NCBI GenBank assembly: GCA_029243165.1
Contig: JAQWSN010000024.1
Location: 62,001-126,000, forward strand
Direction of reading: 5' to 3'
DNA length: 64,000 bases
From: Flavobacteriaceae bacterium
GTDB taxonomy: Bacteria; Bacteroidota; Bacteroidia; Flavobacteriales; Flavobacteriaceae
The notes below the pieces were generated by a model. That model worked only from the letters and a program-made list of their open reading frames with translations, had not been told where the DNA came from and searched no databases. Position 1 is the stretch's first letter; the number at the start of each line of letters is the position of its first letter. The translations under genes were made by a program, and so were the position numbers. Below are positions 54,754 through 64,000 of this stretch, piece by piece.

Positions 54754-55788
54754 CTACTTTGTTTTTTTTAACCCAAAAGTTTTTTGATAATAATCAATAA
54801 TAGGAGGGAAGGGACCGTATTTATGTTGTTCTGAACTAAAATTATCAGTCCAAGGACCGTAAGGTGTTGAAACAGGTTTTAGCTTTTTATCGGGGAAGTC
54901 TTCAATTTTATTTTGTTTTTCAGGCCTTTGAAAACTGTTGATGTATCCTGCAACATGATACGATTCCTCATCTGTCAATTTTGGATTATCCCAAGAGGCT
55001 TGAAGATAAGGCATGTTATTTTTGATAAAAGCTGCTGCGGTAATTACGCGATGCATGCCAGCGCCATCATTAAAGGAATCGTTTCCCCAAAGTGGAGGGT
55101 AGAGATATCCTTTATCCTGTTGATCATAAAGAATGCCTGCTCCGTTTTTGCCATGACATAAAATACATTCACGATCATAAATTTCTTTTCCTAAACTTAG
55201 GTTTACAGCAACTTTTGGAAGTTTTATCGCGGGATATCCTTTGAAATTTTCTGAATTTAATGAAGGAAGTTCTTTGCTAATCCAATTCATGTATGAGATG
55301 ATGGCTTTCATGAGGTCAGAATCATTTGGAAGAGCACTGCCATTCATACTGCGTTCCATGCATCCGTTAATTCGATCCTCAATGGTGCCGATTCGATTTT
55401 CCCTTCCTCTAAATTGAGGAAATCGATCCATAATATTGATCCATGATGCCGATCCGCTTAGAGTCCCTCCATTTAAATGACAATTGGTACAAGACAAATT
55501 ATTGCCTGCATAACGAAGTTCAGGGTTTTTGGCAAGCGGACCCATGTATTTGAAACTTTCTGAAACTAAGTAATATCCTTTTCGGACCTCTTCTGTTACA
55601 CTTGAATTCGTAAGGATTAATTTTTCAGGATTCCATTCCATTAGCAAGTCCTCCTGTTTGATGACTTCTTTTACTTCAGGATTTTCTTGATAAGTTATAA
55701 GAGTTATTACAATAAGAAGTATTGTCCCTGTTAGGGCAAAACACAGCAAAATTAATCGACGAACTAATTGTTCAATAATTGTTTTCAA
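54754..55788 (-). CDS. Dihaem c-type cytochrome, TsdA (thiosulfate dehydrogenase)-like
   Basis: An N-terminal membrane anchor (about residues 11-32) holds a periplasmic dihaem protein. Haem-binding motifs are CTNCH (Cys100, Cys103, His104) and CILCH (Cys208, Cys211, His212). Between them lies RINGCMERSMNG, with Cys143 where TsdA enzymes place the unusual Cys axial ligand of haem 1. A Met (Met259 in KNNMPY) is available as the haem 2 ligand. This is the TsdA layout: oxidation of two thiosulfates to tetrathionate, or the reverse. Physiological direction is unknown. It diverges from a DsrE-like gene. Confidence 0.82.
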   Translation of the reverse strand: MKTIIEQLVRRLILLCFALTGTILLIVITLITYQENPEVKEVIKQEDLLMEWNPEKLILTNSSVTEEVRKGYYLVSESFKYMGPLAKNPELRYAGNNLSCTNCHLNGGTLSGSASWINIMDRFPQFRGRENRIGTIEDRINGCMERSMNGSALPNDSDLMKAIISYMNWISKELPSLNSENFKGYPAIKLPKVAVNLSLGKEIYDRECILCHGKNGAGILYDQQDKGYLYPPLWGNDSFNDGAGMHRVITAAAFIKNNMPYLQASWDNPKLTDEESYHVAGYINSFQRPEKQNKIEDFPDKKLKPVSTPYGPWTDNFSSEQHKYGPFPPIIDYYQKTFGLKKTK

Positions 55789-55928: not shown

Positions 55929-56480
55929 ATGAGATATTTAATTCATACTGTTACAATTTTCCACTGCATGATTTTTGTTGCATTAATGACAAATTGTGTC
56001 TATGGTCAAGAATGGCAGTCTCCCCTAATCAAAGGCTATGGAGAAATAAAATATTTTGATCAAGCAGCCGAACAACCAGACCCTGACCAAGAGTACAAAT
56101 TACTTTTTGACATTACCTCAGACAAGAAAAAAAACGGAGTAAACAAACGTCTTTGGGTTATTGCACGAAGCTTGAATATGATGCATGTTGCTGGAGTACC
56201 GTCCCACAACGTGAAGATAGTAGCAGCTGTACATGGTGCTGCAACTTATGATTTATTGATTGAAGATGCGTATCAAAAGAAATTTGGAAAGCCCAATCCA
56301 AATTCGGATTTGATTGCTCAACTAAAAGCTAATGGAGTGTCTCTTTTTGTGTGTTCTCAGGCAACTGCAGCCCGATCTATTGATTTAGAAGATATCAACC
56401 CTGCAGTAGTACCGGCACTTTCAGCACTTAGTGTACTTGCCAATTATCAAATCAAAGGGTACCATTTAATGCCAAAATAA
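55929..56480 (+). CDS. Exported DsrE/DsrF-like protein
   Basis: A 183-residue protein with a signal peptide (about residues 1-26, ending VYGQ) and a DsrE-like alpha/beta domain: LFDITSDKK, VAAVHGAATYDLLI and LKANGVSLFVCSQATAARSI with one conserved Cys near residue 141, the position of the sulfur-carrying Cys in DsrE-type proteins. Such proteins carry or sense sulfane sulfur. It diverges from the TsdA-like cytochrome gene (about 140 bp between starts), so a link to thiosulfate or tetrathionate metabolism is plausible. Confidence 0.8.
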   Translation: MRYLIHTVTIFHCMIFVALMTNCVYGQEWQSPLIKGYGEIKYFDQAAEQPDPDQEYKLLFDITSDKKKNGVNKRLWVIARSLNMMHVAGVPSHNVKIVAAVHGAATYDLLIEDAYQKKFGKPNPNSDLIAQLKANGVSLFVCSQATAARSIDLEDINPAVVPALSALSVLANYQIKGYHLMPK

Positions 56481-56488
56481 GTACGGAT

Positions 56489-57439
56489 TTAATTTTTGAG
56501 TACTCTTTTAATAAATTCTTGAGGAAGTTCTTGATAGGCACCTGAAAATTCTTGTCCAACTTCAGTGGCTTTTTTCCTTAAATAGTCCGCATGCCTGTAG
56601 CTGTGAAAAAGAACATTGAAATCGATGGAATTATCTTCACTAATTACCTGATCTTCAAAAACGGGATTGTAAATGTACAGCGGTGGATCTTGAGCGTCCA
56701 TCTGATCTCGATAATTTAAAAGAGACGCTTTTTCTTCATCAGCTTCCCCGTTGTAAAATTTTTCAAATAAATCCTCCAATTCGGTATTGCTTTTCCTAAG
56801 GGAATCTAGATCAAAATCTGGAAAAATGTTTTGCCATTCATAAAGATCATAGCTGCTTTGTCCTATGAATGCAAAGATTCCTTTGACTTGGGCGTTGGTT
56901 TGCTCTCTAAATCCATTCCATTGAGCAATTCCACCGCCTGCTGAAATTCCTGCAAGGACAATTTTGTTACTAGGAATACCTAATAAAGAGCTGTTTTTCT
57001 GAATGAAATCAATAACTGTAGCTCCGTCCTCTAGAGCACTTAAAACTCCCTTTGACTCAACATCATCAATAAAGGTGTATTCGGCATTAACGATTGCGAT
57101 ATTGTCTTCTATTGCAGCAGATAAAACCTCTTTCACTTCACTTTCGTAAAGATCTTCTTTGGTACCAAAAAGAAAGGCCCCTCCGTGAAAAAAAATAACT
57201 ACACCATTAATGGCTTTACCATTAGGTAAGAAAAGATCAAGTTGATTTCTTTCACCGGTACCGTAAGCGATATCCTTTAAGAATAGTACATCTCCATCTA
57301 TCGGAGGTTCAGAGGGAGCGACTCCAAAAAAGGAATTTAATTCTTCAGCGCGTTCATCGAGATATTCATTGTTTTTGGAACAGCTCAGAAATAGAAAAGA
57401 TAAAGAAAATAGAAATAAAGGAGTCAGAAATTGTTTCAT
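56489..57439 (-). CDS. Alpha/beta-hydrolase lipoprotein (carboxylesterase-like)
   Basis: I start at ATG 57439 (MKQFLTPLFL) rather than the TTG 18 bp upstream, giving 316 residues and a clean lipoprotein signal (FLFLSC). The hormone-sensitive-lipase/carboxylesterase features are LDLFLPNGK, the oxyanion-hole HGGAF, and the nucleophile elbow AGISAGGGIA (Ser in G-x-S-x-G). A late Asp/His pair (LFHSYRHADYL) could complete the triad. The substrate is unknown. It is convergent with the DsrE-like gene (8 bp between stops). Confidence 0.83.
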   Translation of the reverse strand: MKQFLTPLFLFSLSFLFLSCSKNNEYLDERAEELNSFFGVAPSEPPIDGDVLFLKDIAYGTGERNQLDLFLPNGKAINGVVIFFHGGAFLFGTKEDLYESEVKEVLSAAIEDNIAIVNAEYTFIDDVESKGVLSALEDGATVIDFIQKNSSLLGIPSNKIVLAGISAGGGIAQWNGFREQTNAQVKGIFAFIGQSSYDLYEWQNIFPDFDLDSLRKSNTELEDLFEKFYNGEADEEKASLLNYRDQMDAQDPPLYIYNPVFEDQVISEDNSIDFNVLFHSYRHADYLRKKATEVGQEFSGAYQELPQEFIKRVLKN

Positions 57440-57517
57440 AGCACGGTAAAAATACAATGTTTTTTTAAGCCCAGGAAACCTTCCTTAACTCCTTTATTTT
57501 AATAATTAAGATTCTCT

Positions 57518-57992: not shown

Positions 57993-58457
57993 CTAAAAAC
58001 CAAACGCTTTTTTTCTAAAATTGATGTAGTTTTTCTTGTAAGTCATTATTACATCCTCTCTTGATGAATTTTCTTTGAAGTCTTTCCACTTTTTGGTATT
58101 CTCAGAAAAATTGAAATCCACATTTTTAATCGTCCACGACTGAAGTTGATAAATGATATCGTAGAGTTCAATTCCTCTATCTGTTAGATAGTATTCTTTA
58201 ATCCTTTTGTTTTTGTTGTTTAATTGAAAATTAATGATATTGAGTTCACGGAGTTTTTTGAGCCGATCGGTCAAAATATTAGTAGCAATTTTCTCATCTG
58301 AGTCGTTTTTGAATTGTGTGAAAGTGTAGCGGTACCTGAAAAGGTCTCTAATAATGATTAGAATCCATTTGTCACCTAAATAGTCAAGTGACACTTTGCA
58401 TGCGCAAGTTGGAGCATCATTAAAATATTGGATTTTATCAATTGATGAGGTGGCCAT
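57993..58457 (-). CDS. HxlR-family transcriptional regulator
   Basis: A 154-residue winged-helix regulator. The HxlR pattern is intact: CACKVSLDYLGDKWILIIIRDLF, where the Cys pair may sense redox state or aldehydes, TFTQFKNDS, TNILTDRLKKLRELNIIN and EYYLTDRGIELYDII. Partner genes are not obvious; the flanking genes are the esterase lipoprotein and the metal-uptake locus. A GGAA-N6-TTCC element 21-35 bp upstream of the start (58479-58492) might be its own operator. Confidence 0.9.
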   Translation of the reverse strand: MATSSIDKIQYFNDAPTCACKVSLDYLGDKWILIIIRDLFRYRYTFTQFKNDSDEKIATNILTDRLKKLRELNIINFQLNNKNKRIKEYYLTDRGIELYDIIYQLQSWTIKNVDFNFSENTKKWKDFKENSSREDVIMTYKKNYINFRKKAFGF

Positions 58458-58998
58458 TTGTGTTTGGTTATTATTAAAGGAATAATATTTCCCTCCAAGT
58501 AATGGATTTAATTTATGATTAATAGTTTTCCCAAATTACGAAAAGATGGGTAAATAAGAGACTTTGATTAAATTCTTTTTTTAAAAGTTTACTATTTTTT
58601 GGTTTTAGTTTAAGCCACTGAATGAAGCTAGAACGTTAAACCTATTTCAGATGAAATTCGAAGTAAGACCTTGATTTAAATTATTTTATCCCCAAAGGTT
58701 GACATTGTTTTAATTTGATTAAGAGTAAATACCCTAATGTATTTCTTTAAGTTATCTATTTTGCTATTTTTGCTGTTCGTTACGTAATTACATCTCAAAC
58801 CTAATAAGTTGTATCAGCCTACAATTAAGACCTAAAAAAGGGCATCTTTCTTCATTTTATAATTAGTCTAGATTAACAACTACTAATTCGAAGAGGTGCC
58901 CCCTTTTTTTATTTATAATAATTCTAAATAATTTTTTTATTCGTTGATTTTTTTTTAGTTTCGCCATGTTAATTTAGACTAATTATAAATAAAGAAAA
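58458..58998. other. Intergenic region, 541 bp, with candidate RNA
   Basis: Separates the HxlR gene (minus strand) and the DUF4856 gene (plus strand). The first ~300 bp show no coding frame. The last ~210 bp hold the candidate structured RNA at 58790-58912 and, 88 bp after its T-tract, the DUF4856 start. Confidence 0.6.
58790..58912 (+). ncRNA. Candidate structured RNA ending in a terminator-like hairpin
   Basis: Three helices can be drawn. A small hairpin pairs 58807-58813 with 58820-58826 (loop TCAGCC). A large hairpin has outer arms 58839-58853 and 58890-58902 (GGGCA with TGCCC, CTTC with GAAG, with small bulges) and an inner perfect 7-bp stem 58861-58867 with 58882-58888 (AATTAGT/ACTAATT). 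A run of seven T follows at 58904-58910. This is terminator-like, yet no gene ends upstream on the plus strand. It may be a small RNA or a leader attenuator for the DUF4856 operon. The 5' end is a guess. Confidence 0.4.
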
Positions 58999-60246
58999 AT
59001 GAAATTAAAATTATTAATGAGTGCTTTAACACTTACATTTTTATCTAGTTGTACGAAGACTGAATCGCTTCCAGATACCGATGAACTTGAAATGGTTGTT
59101 AATGAAAACGAGCTAGAAACAGAGACTACTACTGAAATGACCTATGAAATACCTGAAAACTACACCTTTACTCGCAATGGGGTGTCAACGGTTTTTTACA
59201 CGGGGCAGACTGCCAGATTAAAAATGGCTACGGAACTAAAATCAGGTATGAATGATACTTCATTCTCTACTGAGCGTTTAAAAAATATGTTTAACTCGGG
59301 AACTGGTTTTGTTGATTCAGCTTTAGATGAAACGGGGAAAAATGTGGGAGGTAAAACGGCTGCTTCAATCTTGGCTTCGGCTACGGTAAAACCTCTTTTT
59401 GACGGATGGATTGATGCGTTTACTACAGTTGTAGCTCCTGCGGTAGTTTCAGATACAACAGCTGAGTTAGGTATTGCAGGTTCTTACACTGAAGCTGATG
59501 GTTCTAGAACGGTTAAAGTTACGGCCAAGGGTTTAGAATTAAATCAAGTTTTTTCAAAGGGATTGATCGGAGCACTTCAAATGGATCAAATTGTAAATAA
59601 TTATTTGTCCTTTTCGAAGTTGGATGGTGCCCGTGAAGATAATGATAATGAGGCCTATGCTTACACTTATCCTGGTGAATCAGAAGCCTCCATAACAAAA
59701 ATGGAACATTATTGGGATGAGGGCTTTGGTTATCTTCAAGGACTAGACAGCCAATTCACACCAGGTCTTGGAGATACAGAAACTGGAAAAGATACAGCCA
59801 ATCTTAATTACTACCTCAATAAAGTAAATGCTCAAGCGAATGAGGAAGGAATTACCAACAGAATCTACCAAGCTTTTACAGCAGGGAGAGCCGCAATAGT
59901 TAATAAAGATTACGAAGAACGTGACAAACAAGCTGCAATCATCTCAGCCGAGTTGTCTAAAGTTATTGGATACAAAGCTCAATCGTATTTAGTTGATGGA
60001 TCTGAAGATATTAGCAATGGAGACTGGGCAGATGCCTTACATGCCTTGTCAGAGGCTTATGGTTTTATACTTGGACTTCAATTCACAAAGGATTCCACAG
60101 GAAATCCCTACATGACGAATCAAGAGGTAAATGCTTTGCTTGAAAGACTCACTGATGGTTCAGGAGGGTTTTGGGAAAGAACCCCAGAGGAACTTACTGT
60201 AATGGCAAACGAAGTTGCCCTAGCTACTGGTTTAACCTTGCCGTAA
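58999..60246 (+). CDS. DUF4856 lipoprotein
   Basis: A 415-residue lipoprotein (lipobox LSSC, Cys18) with a long acidic linker (residues about 25-48, Glu/Thr-rich). The mature part has the DUF4856 pattern: VFYTGQTARLKMATELKSGM, the Tyr/Gly-rich KMEHYWDEGFGYL, the GRAAIVNKDYEERDKQAAII segment and the EAYGFILGLQF end. The family is structurally related to imelysins and occurs with them in Bacteroidota. It heads the operon-like series imelysin, HTTM and TonB receptor. A function in metal (iron) binding at the surface is inferred from that context. Confidence 0.85.
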   Translation: MKLKLLMSALTLTFLSSCTKTESLPDTDELEMVVNENELETETTTEMTYEIPENYTFTRNGVSTVFYTGQTARLKMATELKSGMNDTSFSTERLKNMFNSGTGFVDSALDETGKNVGGKTAASILASATVKPLFDGWIDAFTTVVAPAVVSDTTAELGIAGSYTEADGSRTVKVTAKGLELNQVFSKGLIGALQMDQIVNNYLSFSKLDGAREDNDNEAYAYTYPGESEASITKMEHYWDEGFGYLQGLDSQFTPGLGDTETGKDTANLNYYLNKVNAQANEEGITNRIYQAFTAGRAAIVNKDYEERDKQAAIISAELSKVIGYKAQSYLVDGSEDISNGDWADALHALSEAYGFILGLQFTKDSTGNPYMTNQEVNALLERLTDGSGGFWERTPEELTVMANEVALATGLTLP

Positions 60247-60296
60247 AAAAAACACTGTTTAAATATGTTAAGTTTTAACTAAATATTCAAAAAAAT

Positions 60297-60322
60297 GTAA
60301 GTGCTTAGAAATAAGCACTTAC
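60297..60322 (+). promoter_or_regulatory. Perfect 10-bp hairpin just before the imelysin gene
   Basis: GTAAGTGCTT (60297-60306) pairs perfectly with AAGCACTTAC (60313-60322) around a 6-nt loop, ending 10 nt before the ATG at 60333. No T-tract follows, so it is not a typical terminator. It may stabilise or separate the messages, or affect translation of the imelysin gene. Confidence 0.5.
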
Positions 60323-60332
60323 TCAGTTTACT

Positions 60333-61514
60333 ATGAGAAAAATAAAATTGAGACCTGTACTTCTGATTGCACTAATTTTTATTCAGTGTAGTATTGATGA
60401 TGTATCGAATGAATTTGTAGAGGAAATAAATGTTGGAAAATCAGAGGAGGTTTCTGTTTTGACTAATACCGATAGTAAAGATACTTCCCAAACGTCTTTT
60501 AATCATCAAGCGATGCTGATGAATTGGGCTGACAATATTATTATTCCTTCCCTTTCTGGATTTGAGAGTTCATTGATTGAACTCAAAACGAAAGCATCGG
60601 AGTACACGAGCTATCCCAATGCAGAAACTTTATCTGTTTTGAGAGCGGTGTGGTTAGATAGTTATCTAAAGTGGCAACATGTCGAAATGTTTGATATTGG
60701 TACCGCTGAGGAAATTTATTTTAAAAATAGGATTAATTTATTTCCAGCTAATATTGATAGAATCGAGTCAAACATTGCCAATCAAGAATACGATTTAGAT
60801 CAATCTTCAAACTTCACCTCACAAGGGTTTAATAGCCTCGATTACCTCTTGTTCGGACTGGGAGAAAATGACAATGCAATTAATGATAAATATGCCTCTG
60901 AAAACTCTAATTATTCCAAATACTTAATTGAGGTGATTGATAAAATGATTGCACTAACTTCCGAGATCAAAGAAGGATGGAATGAGGAATTCAGAAATTC
61001 ATTCATCAATTCCACTGAGAATACTTCTACTTCGAGTGTGAATATGGTTCTCAATGATTTTATTTTTTATTTTGAAAAAGGATTTAGAGCAAATAAGGTA
61101 GGTATTCCTTCAGGGGTGTTTTCTGATCTGCCTCTTCCGGATAGAGTAGAGGCTTATTATTCAAAAAAACACTCAAGACTTTTAGCATTAGAGGCCAATA
61201 AAGCGATCCGAAATTTCTTCAACGGTAAATACTATGAGGACAATGAACAAGTTGGTTTGAGTGTACGTGATTATTTAGATTACTTGGAATCTGATGAAGA
61301 GACTAAACTCAGTGATAAAATCAATAATCAACTCGATTCAATTGACTCTAAGTTAAACTCTCTTAATCCTGATTTTACCCAACAGATTATTCAGGATAAT
61401 CTTGCAATGCTTTATGCTTTTGATGTAATTCAAGCCAATGTGGTTTTACTAAAAGTAGACATGCTTCAAAAACTGAATATTAATGTGGATTATGCTGATG
61501 CTGATGGTGACTAA
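60333..61514 (+). CDS. Imelysin-family (IrpA-like) lipoprotein
   Basis: A lipoprotein (FIQC, Cys20, followed by SIDD, which resembles an acidic surface-export signal) of the imelysin/M75 family of extracytoplasmic iron- or haem-related binding proteins. Helical-bundle features are AVWLDSYLKWQHVEMFDIG near residues 108-126 and a second half with KVDMLQKLNINV at the end. The family's GxHxxE motif is altered here: GFNSLDYLLFG, with Asn167 and Asp170 in place of His and Glu. That suggests changed metal chemistry or loss of the original activity. It follows DUF4856 by 86 bp and precedes HTTM. Confidence 0.87.
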   Translation: MRKIKLRPVLLIALIFIQCSIDDVSNEFVEEINVGKSEEVSVLTNTDSKDTSQTSFNHQAMLMNWADNIIIPSLSGFESSLIELKTKASEYTSYPNAETLSVLRAVWLDSYLKWQHVEMFDIGTAEEIYFKNRINLFPANIDRIESNIANQEYDLDQSSNFTSQGFNSLDYLLFGLGENDNAINDKYASENSNYSKYLIEVIDKMIALTSEIKEGWNEEFRNSFINSTENTSTSSVNMVLNDFIFYFEKGFRANKVGIPSGVFSDLPLPDRVEAYYSKKHSRLLALEANKAIRNFFNGKYYEDNEQVGLSVRDYLDYLESDEETKLSDKINNQLDSIDSKLNSLNPDFTQQIIQDNLAMLYAFDVIQANVVLLKVDMLQKLNINVDYADADGD

Positions 61515-61555
61515 AGCTACCATTAAATACTCTCTAAATAATTTAATTTATTGCT

Positions 61556-62938
61556 GTGCATAAAATAATCCATGACTATTATTCAAGGAAGAAAGCTCAC
61601 CCTGCTACTTTAGCTTTTTTTAGGATAACGTTTGGCGGATTAATGTTTTTATCTACCCTGAGATTTTGGTCTAAAGGCTGGATTGAAACGCTTTATGTTT
61701 TACCTGAATATCATTTCAAGTACTTCGGTTTTGAGTGGGTTACAGACTTGGGAAACTTCACTTATCTACTTTTCCTTTTGGGACTAATTTCCTCCTTTTT
61801 TGTAATGATTGGATACAAATACAGGTTGTCTGTAATTACATTCTTTTTAGTTTTTACCTACATCGAATTGATCGACAAAACCACTTATTTAAATCATTAT
61901 TATTTAACGAGTTGTTTAGCATTCATAATGTGTTTTCTTCCTGCTGCAAGTTATTTTTCTGTAGATGCTTTTATTTCAGGTAAACGAGCAACTGCAATAC
62001 CTGTTTGGAACGTAGATGCGATCAAAATTTTCATCTGTTTGGTTTATTTTTTTGCTGGAATAGCAAAGATTAATTCGGATTGGTTGTTGGAAGCTCAGCC
62101 CTTGTCTTTGTGGCTCAAATCGAAATACGATTTGCCTTGGATTGGACAAACCTTGATGCAATCCAAAGTGACTCATTACTTAGCCAGCTGGTTTGGTATG
62201 ATTTACGATGTTTGTATTCCCTTTTTTTTACTTTTTTCCAGAACTAAATACATCGCATATTTTTTTGTGATTATTTTTCATATCCTCACAAAAATATTTT
62301 TTCCTTCCATCGGGATGTTTCCCTACATTATGATTACAAGTGCAGTTATTTTTTTTGACTCAAGGATTCACATCAAGATTTTAAATTACTTGCAATCCCT
62401 GATTGAAAAAATAGGTTTGTTTTTTGTTTCAAAATCTCTAGAAATTAATTTAAAACCTAAAACGATTGCGCCTAACAAATTTATTTTTACACTACTTTGT
62501 TGTTTTTTATTCTTTCAGTTGCTGTTTCCTCTTCGGTATTTGCTTTACCCAGGTGAGCTTTTTTGGAACGAGCAGGGTTATCGTTTTTCGTGGAGGGTTA
62601 TGTTAATGGAAAAAAGGGGAGACATTACATTCAAAATTAAAGACAGTGTAGCAAACACCTATTTTTATGTCAAAAATGAAGATTTTTTGACACCCTTTCA
62701 AGAAAAGCAAATGAGTTTCCAACCTGATTTTATTTTGGAATATGCACATTACTTGGGGAAGCATTTTAATGATAAAGGCCATCAAAACACACAAATATTT
62801 GTGGATAGTTTCGTTGCTCTTAATGGTCGTCCTAGTCAAAGATTTATCGACCCTAATTTTGACTTGTTAAAAGCACAAGAATCGTTTTCAAATAAAGATT
62901 GGATTTTACCTCTGAATGATGAAATTAAAGGACTTTAG
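61556..62938 (+). CDS. HTTM (vitamin-K-carboxylase-like) membrane protein
   Basis: A 460-residue membrane protein of the HTTM family, whose eukaryotic relative is vitamin K-dependent gamma-carboxylase. Hydrophobic segments lie at about residues 20-40, 65-88, 95-125, 155-175, 210-260 and 305-325; family patterns include LAFFRITFGGLMFLSTLRFW, IELIDKTTYLNHYYLTS and AGIAKINSDWLLEAQPL. The C-terminal ~150 residues are extracytoplasmic or soluble. The start is GTG at 61556; the next ATG would remove conserved sequence. The family is often beside imelysin and TonB receptor genes in marine flavobacteria. The reaction is unknown. Confidence 0.85.
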   Translation: MHKIIHDYYSRKKAHPATLAFFRITFGGLMFLSTLRFWSKGWIETLYVLPEYHFKYFGFEWVTDLGNFTYLLFLLGLISSFFVMIGYKYRLSVITFFLVFTYIELIDKTTYLNHYYLTSCLAFIMCFLPAASYFSVDAFISGKRATAIPVWNVDAIKIFICLVYFFAGIAKINSDWLLEAQPLSLWLKSKYDLPWIGQTLMQSKVTHYLASWFGMIYDVCIPFFLLFSRTKYIAYFFVIIFHILTKIFFPSIGMFPYIMITSAVIFFDSRIHIKILNYLQSLIEKIGLFFVSKSLEINLKPKTIAPNKFIFTLLCCFLFFQLLFPLRYLLYPGELFWNEQGYRFSWRVMLMEKRGDITFKIKDSVANTYFYVKNEDFLTPFQEKQMSFQPDFILEYAHYLGKHFNDKGHQNTQIFVDSFVALNGRPSQRFIDPNFDLLKAQESFSNKDWILPLNDEIKGL

Positions 62939-64000
62939 TTTAGTATTGATATTTTTTTCAACGGCTCTTTTTTCACAAACTAAGGTTAGGGGGATTGTCG
63001 TTTTTAATGATCGTTTTGAATCCAATTTGGAAGTTAAGGTTTATGAAATTAACTCAGGATTTTTAGAAACGGTACCCCTTAATGAGCCATTTGAGATTGA
63101 AATTCTTCCCACGACAACTGATCTTATTTTTGTAGTTGATGGTTTTCCCTCAATAAAGAAAACGATCGATTTTGAAACTGTAAGTACTTCTTTTTTAACA
63201 ATTGATTTAGTGGTTGAGGAATTATCCGAGGTAATTCTAAGTGCCAAGCGTAAGGAAGTGTTTTTATTAAAACGGATGGAAGATTTTGATAACACAGAAA
63301 TTTATGCTGGAAAAAAAAACGAAGTCATTCTCATTGAGCAATCTATGGGTAATTTGGCTTCCAATAATTCGAGACAAATTTACAATCAAATTCCTGGGCT
63401 TAATATTTATCAAAACGATGATGCAGGACTTCAATTAAATGTTGGCGGTCGAGGGCTTGATCCCAACCGAACTTCTAATTTTAATACCCGTCAAAATGGA
63501 TATGATATTAGTGCCGATGTTTTGGGCTATCCTGAAAGCTATTACACACCCCCTGCTGAAGCTTTAGAAGAAATACAAATTATTAGAGGAGCTGCTTCAT
63601 TGCAATACGGAACTCAATTTGGAGGGCTGATTAACTTTAAACTAAAGACCGCTGATCCATTTAAACCTTTCTCATTGAAAACGAGAAATACTTTAGGATC
63701 AAATAATCTATTGACAAATTACACGGAGGTATCTGGGACATTGAATAAATTTAAGTACCTCGGATATGTGAATTTAAAAAAAGGGAATGGATTCCGACCC
63801 AATTCAAAATTCAACTCTTCCAATGTATTTTTTAAAGTGGGATATGATTTTTCTGAGAGTACTTCTCTAAGTGCTGAAATAACCTATCTGGATTATCTCG
63901 CACAACAAGGGGGTGGGCTGTCTGATCTTATGTTCAATCAAAATCCTTATCAAAGTAATCGATCGAGAAATTGGTTTGCCTTGTCTTGGTTTTTGTACAA
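62916..64000 (+). CDS. TonB-dependent receptor (FecA/siderophore-type), 3' end outside window
   Basis: Starts at ATG 62916 (or 62919), overlapping the HTTM gene by 23 bp in another frame, and is open to the window end (361 codons visible). A signal peptide (ending ALFSQ) precedes a short beta domain (about residues 23-100), the start of the plug (VEELSEVILSAKRK, then the MGNLASNNSRQIYNQIPGLNIYQND region) and the plug core GAASLQYGTQFGGLINFKLK. This is the classical siderophore/metal TonB receptor type, not SusC: no SusC-length plug signature and a FecA-like order. Barrel strands follow. It completes the probable metal-uptake series. Confidence 0.88.
   Translation, partial: MMKLKDFSLVLIFFSTALFSQTKVRGIVVFNDRFESNLEVKVYEINSGFLETVPLNEPFEIEILPTTTDLIFVVDGFPSIKKTIDFETVSTSFLTIDLVVEELSEVILSAKRKEVFLLKRMEDFDNTEIYAGKKNEVILIEQSMGNLASNNSRQIYNQIPGLNIYQNDDAGLQLNVGGRGLDPNRTSNFNTRQNGYDISADVLGYPESYYTPPAEALEEIQIIRGAASLQYGTQFGGLINFKLKTADPFKPFSLKTRNTLGSNNLLTNYTEVSGTLNKFKYLGYVNLKKGNGFRPNSKFNSSNVFFKVGYDFSESTSLSAEITYLDYLAQQGGGLSDLMFNQNPYQSNRSRNWFALSWFLY

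Follow-up and report, generated by a model that had tools for sequence, protein, structure and literature searches.

The last part of a 64,000-nt stretch of DNA from a Flavobacteriaceae bacterium (GCA_029243165.1, contig JAQWSN010000024.1, positions 62,001 to 126,000 of the forward strand; hereafter the window) carries four genes that open reading frame (ORF) calls and Pfam matches place on the + strand in the order DUF4856 lipoprotein, imelysin-like lipoprotein, HTTM protein and TonB-dependent receptor, as an earlier note on this sequence had described. We found that the HTTM protein is a homologue of the vitamin K-dependent gamma-carboxylase with its catalytic residues conserved, and that the genes around it are well supported as a Fur-repressed iron-acquisition operon, to judge from Fur-box-like sites at the promoter and from published regulation in another genus. 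All four genes are intact, the receptor gene extending 1.3 kb beyond the window end on the contig.

The four-gene order is far from chance, as it recurs in 41/72 loci of the class and in 76/80 loci of named genomes. In a survey of 198 genomes of the class, PF22777, the lumenal domain of the gamma-carboxylase, was present in 56, imelysin in 73 and DUF4856 in 55, and the 72 class loci comprise the window's own locus and the gene surroundings of every one of the other 71 PF22777 matches. An imelysin gene lies directly upstream in 44 of these loci, DUF4856 in 42 and a receptor downstream in 45, with all four genes present in 41. The complete operons share a single order on the same strand, with gene ends that mostly overlap or nearly touch, and the 72 loci show no additional gene as a regular member. 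A scan of named flavobacterial genomes, from which the best 80 loci were kept, gave all four genes in 76; two of the four incomplete loci are matches close to a contig end and two are without a recognised DUF4856. The named carriers include Maribacter, Winogradskyella, Olleya, Kordia, Polaribacter, Tenacibaculum and Bizionia; the operon is carried by many marine and other Bacteroidota. Some loci depart from the common layout: one genus (g43; L035, L036, L037, L178 and L180) has a split version, with the carboxylase apart from imelysin and DUF4856 on other contigs, L044 carries a second DUF4856 after the receptor, and L047 and L177 a second imelysin ahead of DUF4856.

The third gene of the operon (61556..62938, + strand, 460 aa) combines an HTTM domain (PF05090, 241.5 bits, 1.5e-71) with the vitamin K-dependent gamma-carboxylase (VKGC) lumenal domain (PF22777, 203.9 bits, 1.6e-60), both above the cut-offs of 27.7 and together spanning the whole protein. 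Its residues 13-454 match residues 58-506 of human GGCX (2.8e-42), and its predicted model (mean predicted local distance difference test score, pLDDT, 83.2) aligns with GGCX-FIX over 431 residues with Z 31.7 and a root mean square deviation of 3.3, covering GGCX residues ~41-509. With a gamma-carboxylase lumenal domain and a match to GGCX along its whole length, the protein is more than HTTM-like, and the kinship with the vitamin K carboxylase put forward in the earlier note is strengthened by these matches as well as by the catalytic residues. Because the match stops near GGCX residue 509, we name the protein a homologue and not GGCX; the complete propeptide-binding clamp and the Arch domain are not found in the window enzyme.

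Counting residue equivalences along the sequence alignment with human GGCX, we found that the catalytic Lys218 corresponds to Lys171 of the window enzyme, Asn159/His160 of the glutamate (Glu) pocket to Asn113/His114, Tyr395 to Tyr342, and F286, F294, F299 and W223 of the quinone pocket to F241, F249, F255 and W176, respectively (residue roles follow PMC12589487, which gives K218 as catalytic and K217 as involved in substrate binding). Across the window enzyme and 80 named relatives, K171, N113, H114, F241, F249, F255 and W176 are invariant (81/81), and the position of Tyr342 is occupied by Tyr in 69 and Phe in 12. In the class set, the Lys218 equivalent is kept in 71/71 enzymes with an ORF of >300 aa, and the Asn159/His160 equivalents are kept in 45/45 operonic copies versus 20/26 stand-alone copies (L076, L079, L080, L083 and L085-L103 are stand-alone carboxylase-like paralogues). 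Ser-Tyr replaces the Asn-His pair in 6/26 stand-alone copies, which suggests another chemistry in those paralogues. The operonic enzymes group on the tree, requiring 2 changes versus 21 in shuffles (one 130-aa fragment excluded), and of three operon proteins compared the enzyme shows the highest conservation, with 40-56% identity to the window's copy versus 23-47% for imelysin and 15-42% for DUF4856.

We searched for Fur boxes with the consensus published for Riemerella (PMC5609570), allowing ≤3 mismatches. Fur-box-like sites occur at only two places in the window, both just 5′ of the operon: a palindrome at 58911..58929 (no strand assigned; 1 mismatch on the - strand, 2 on the + strand) and a second at 58972..58990 (no strand assigned; 2-3 mismatches), immediately 5′ of the start codon. 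Shuffling the window gave a mean of 0.22 matches, and 0/100 shuffles reached the observed four strand-wise matches. A Fur-box-like site is likewise present ≤350 bp upstream in 73/76 named relatives with DUF4856; random windows of the same locus, which could overlap the site itself, equalled it at rates of 0-10% for 75/76 loci and 25.5% for L256. The window's genome encodes one Fur homologue. In Riemerella anatipestifer, the genes RAYM_09779 (receptor), RAYM_09784 (vitamin K-dependent gamma-carboxylase), RAYM_09789 (imelysin) and RAYM_09794 (hypothetical) are iron/Fur-regulated and raised by iron restriction, with values of 2.11, 2.64, 3.07 and 2.41, respectively, in the published table (PMC5609570); RAYM_09794 would, by its gene position, be DUF4856. 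Taken together, the sites and the published regulation lend good support to the metal uptake role that the earlier note had assigned to these genes, with iron as the metal.

The imelysin-like lipoprotein (60333..61514, + strand, 393 aa; PF09375, 1.4e-26; C-terminus ADADGD) does not have the canonical GxHxxE motif of imelysin/IrpA/EfeO. The change to GFNSLD noticed earlier is confirmed at residues 165-170, yet it is no oddity of this copy, being typical of its subfamily: our survey of GxHxxE variants found the same variant type, not an intact standard motif, in the close relatives, which rules out decay. The 44 operonic copies read G-[FLYI]-x-[ATSG]-[LIVM]-[DE]-[YF]. Their third motif position is Pro in 29 and never His (Asn in the window), and the last position holds Asp 32 times and Glu 12 times, where Asp of the window is a conservative change. 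The final residue of the protein is Asp in 44/44 operonic copies, preceded by Gly in 43, and a C-terminal DGD ends 78/79 named copies. The profile matches IPPA (3pf0) with 8e-23 over positions 36-366 of 366, and 3pf0 itself has a C-terminal DGD and a Pro in place of the motif His, the IPPA-type variant of GxHxxE having been described in 2011 for the IPPA/PA4372 family (Xu et al. 2011, PMC3143127). By its sequence, the operon imelysin is thus an IPPA-type variant and no decayed copy. Among the stand-alone imelysins of the class, the majority retain GxHxxE and have no DGD. Four loci show an older arrangement made of a GxHxxE imelysin, a gene of ~465 aa, which proved to be a di-haem oxidoreductase (PF06537) in the single locus where this was tested, and an IPPA-type copy that ends in DGD; relative to this arrangement, the window-type operon gives the IPPA-type protein new partners. 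EfeB-type and di-haem peroxidase partners gave no match in the window's genome, a 94%-complete draft.

The first gene of the operon encodes the DUF4856 lipoprotein (58999..60246, + strand, 415 aa; Pfam E 1.8e-90). Of the “two imelysin-related lipoproteins” proposed earlier, the PF09375 protein stands, while imelysin kinship of DUF4856 is supported neither by profile nor by structure comparison: in hhalign, the alignment of DUF4856 to imelysin covered no more than the signal peptide, and imelysin structures scored low (Algp7, Z 4.8; PIBO, Z 4.6), ranking below unrelated rows. The model (pLDDT 88.8) is mostly helical, and no solved structure matches it clearly (best Foldseek E 0.12), although novelty of the fold does not follow from this; the best Z of 9.8, to FliS over 93 residues, may for helical bundles be a mere common arrangement. 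His348 and Glu352 are invariant in 42/42 proteins of the class set and possibly form a metal site. We also compared the lipoboxes of 79 imelysins and 76 DUF4856 proteins from the named loci. Among those with a recognised lipobox, acidic residues stand just past the lipidated Cys in 52/67 imelysins and 60/65 DUF4856 proteins, and the corresponding counts in the class set are 20/40 and 23/40. Acidic residues at this place fit the surface-export signal of Bacteroidota lipoproteins.

The receptor (62916..64000, + strand, first 361 of 808 aa within the window; plug domain 2.9e-8) is intact at its full length of 808 aa on the contig, the remainder lying beyond the window (L002:6917-9343). It is a TonB-dependent receptor, as had been proposed, and its assignment to the FecA type does not hold: it scores 104.7 bits with NCBIfam FecA against a cut-off of 1100 and is only loosely FecA-like. 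Just after it, still beyond the window, L002:9384-9893 encodes a 169-aa PepSY_TM-like membrane protein. Such a gene follows the receptor in 1/72 class loci and 1/80 named loci (L204, a near relative), which rules it out as a core member of the operon; it is a lineage-specific addition and possibly a reductase partner.

Based on these data, we propose that iron starvation would lead to production of the outer-membrane receptor, the two exported lipoproteins and the inner-membrane carboxylase homologue, the IPPA-type and DUF4856 lipoproteins probably binding or passing on an iron source beside the receptor. The enzyme, with an active site that would face the periplasm, would most likely use menaquinol, the bacterium's own vitamin K, together with O2 and CO2, to carboxylate Glu in an exported substrate, probably an operon lipoprotein or the receptor on its way out of the inner membrane, and the resulting gamma-carboxyglutamate (Gla) side chain would bind iron more strongly. 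That the operon's enzyme gamma-carboxylates Glu in an exported protein has, in our judgement, a little less than an even chance of being right. The wider idea, that Bacteroidota make Gla by menaquinol-driven periplasmic carboxylation of exported iron-uptake proteins under iron starvation, for iron and not for calcium, is more speculative and on balance rather unlikely.

The observations that weigh against this proposal concern the enzyme, its setting and its target. Human N158, K217, M401 and R436 correspond to L112, A170, V348 and Q385, none of them identical, and in the structure alignment the stretch of GGCX past ~residue 509, into which the propeptide clamp partly falls, has no counterpart here. 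The 94%-complete genome gave no match to a vitamin K epoxide reductase (VKOR), which leaves epoxide recycling unexplained. The Fur-box table of PMC5609570 is without these Riemerella genes, and published tests of IPPA detected binding of neither iron nor heme. The missing half of the clamp and the altered K217 and R436 equivalents would suit the main alternative, namely that the enzyme no longer carboxylates protein and instead epoxidises or oxidises menaquinol, contributing to iron acquisition through redox chemistry or some other activity. A role of this kind has reportedly been argued for the Leptospira homologue. In addition, the di-haem oxidoreductase beside imelysins in related IPPA-type operons (PF06537 in one locus tested) makes an oxidising enzyme normal in such a setting, and no substrate Glu follows the presence of the enzyme, as detailed below. 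However, the Asn159/His160 equivalents are kept in all operonic copies and named relatives, as against their replacement by Ser-Tyr in part of the stand-alone paralogues, and this retention fits selection for binding of a glutamate-like group. We regard loss of carboxylation as a serious explanation that is nonetheless unlikely to be the correct one.

The search for a target made use of 11 class loci in which DUF4856 and imelysin occur and the carboxylase is absent. A receptor adjoins in 10/11 of them, that is, the other three genes are kept, and stand-alone carboxylase paralogues occur elsewhere in 1/11 of these genomes. A receptor tree of 42 carboxylase-plus and 10 carboxylase-minus rows requires a minimum of five gain or loss events for the carboxylase, some of them within single genera. 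Its absence from some operons makes the carboxylase an optional improvement of the operon. Lack of O2 as a cause of its loss is ruled out, given that COX1 is present in 21/21 of the genomes tested, carriers of the enzyme and non-carriers alike. We compared imelysin, DUF4856 and receptor between 44, 42 and 43 carboxylase-plus and 11, 10 and 10 carboxylase-minus proteins, respectively (shorter fragments dropped), and found no Glu in any of the three kept only with the carboxylase, either overall or consistently in two closely related groups; a required, enzyme-specific target Glu in the partners is thus not visible. Nor are the lipoprotein tails clearly richer in Glu where the carboxylase is present, so Glu-rich tails were rejected as the substrate, although the tail of the window's own DUF4856 is Glu-rich. 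The C-terminal DGD is ruled out as a target or recognition tag, being kept in carboxylase-free operons and in the IPPA structure 3pf0.

A facultative target, in which carboxylation improves a conserved Glu, is possible under the carboxylation proposal. The lack of a partner Glu that tracks the enzyme, and of a further consistent operon gene in the class set, would also be compatible with carboxylation of a small molecule or of a peptide encoded elsewhere, for instance an iron chelator re-imported by the receptor. We consider this improbable, since no biosynthesis genes or small ORFs lie alongside, the intergenic gaps are mostly overlaps, and all solved-structure homologues found are the protein carboxylase GGCX. 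Finally, the fact that some operons do without the HTTM protein would agree with a standard TonB-type operon for siderophore or heme uptake, with this protein as a structural or assembly factor without chemistry, an explanation that we hold to be the least probable of all, given the high conservation of the enzyme relative to its partners and its invariant active-site columns.

Upstream of the operon, the window encodes an ORF with two CxxCH haem-binding motifs (54754-55788), a DsrE-like protein (55929-56480), an esterase (BD-FAE; 56489-57457) and an HxlR-type regulator that points away (57993-58457), none with a visible tie to the operon.

Relatives of the clotting-factor carboxylase have been described in bacteria before. 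The present operon is compact and strongly conserved, has Fur-box-like promoters and encodes an enzyme whose active site looks intact; together, these features reduce the search for the enzyme's function to three candidate partner proteins and a single growth condition, in marine bacteria that can be cultured, with natural enzyme-free operons within the same genus as ready-made controls. If the proposal is true, it would establish Gla in bacteria and a role of vitamin K in metal uptake; a negative outcome would point to the work of this family besides carboxylation.

Compared with known systems, the window enzyme resembles human and animal GGCX in the full transmembrane domain and the first part of the lumenal domain, in Lys218, Asn159, His160, mostly Tyr395, and the Phe residues of the quinone pocket. 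It differs in length (460 aa versus ~758 aa in GGCX, with nothing corresponding beyond ~509), in the changed K217, N158, M401 and R436, and in its place in an iron operon. Another bacterial GGCX homologue, that of Leptospira (PMC4555120), belongs to a spirochaete, is presumed to be a horizontal gain and, in the part of that paper drawn on, has no iron-operon link. The imelysin resembles IPPA/PA4372 (PMC3143127) in the replaced motif His (Pro in IPPA and 29/44 operonic copies, Asn in the window), the DGD C-terminus (PDB 3pf0), the profile match (8e-23) and the Fur-regulated neighbours. IPPA differs in its motif Glu (Asp in the window and 32/44 operonic copies) and in its partners, an upstream GxHxxE imelysin and a di-haem peroxidase in place of DUF4856, carboxylase and receptor, and, unlike IPPA, the window imelysin is a predicted lipoprotein. 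The closest counterpart of the whole operon is RAYM_09779-09794 of Riemerella (PMC5609570), with consecutive receptor, carboxylase, imelysin and hypothetical genes that rise under iron restriction; in the portion of the paper at our disposal, the last three are table rows only, the hypothetical gene is not named DUF4856 and no Fur box is listed. In open-licence PubMed Central literature, this one paper names imelysin together with gamma-carboxylase and none names DUF4856, such that the combination appears undescribed there save for these neighbouring table rows. The parts are known singly; the apparent novelty is an iron operon of the IPPA type that also carries a gamma-carboxylase homologue.

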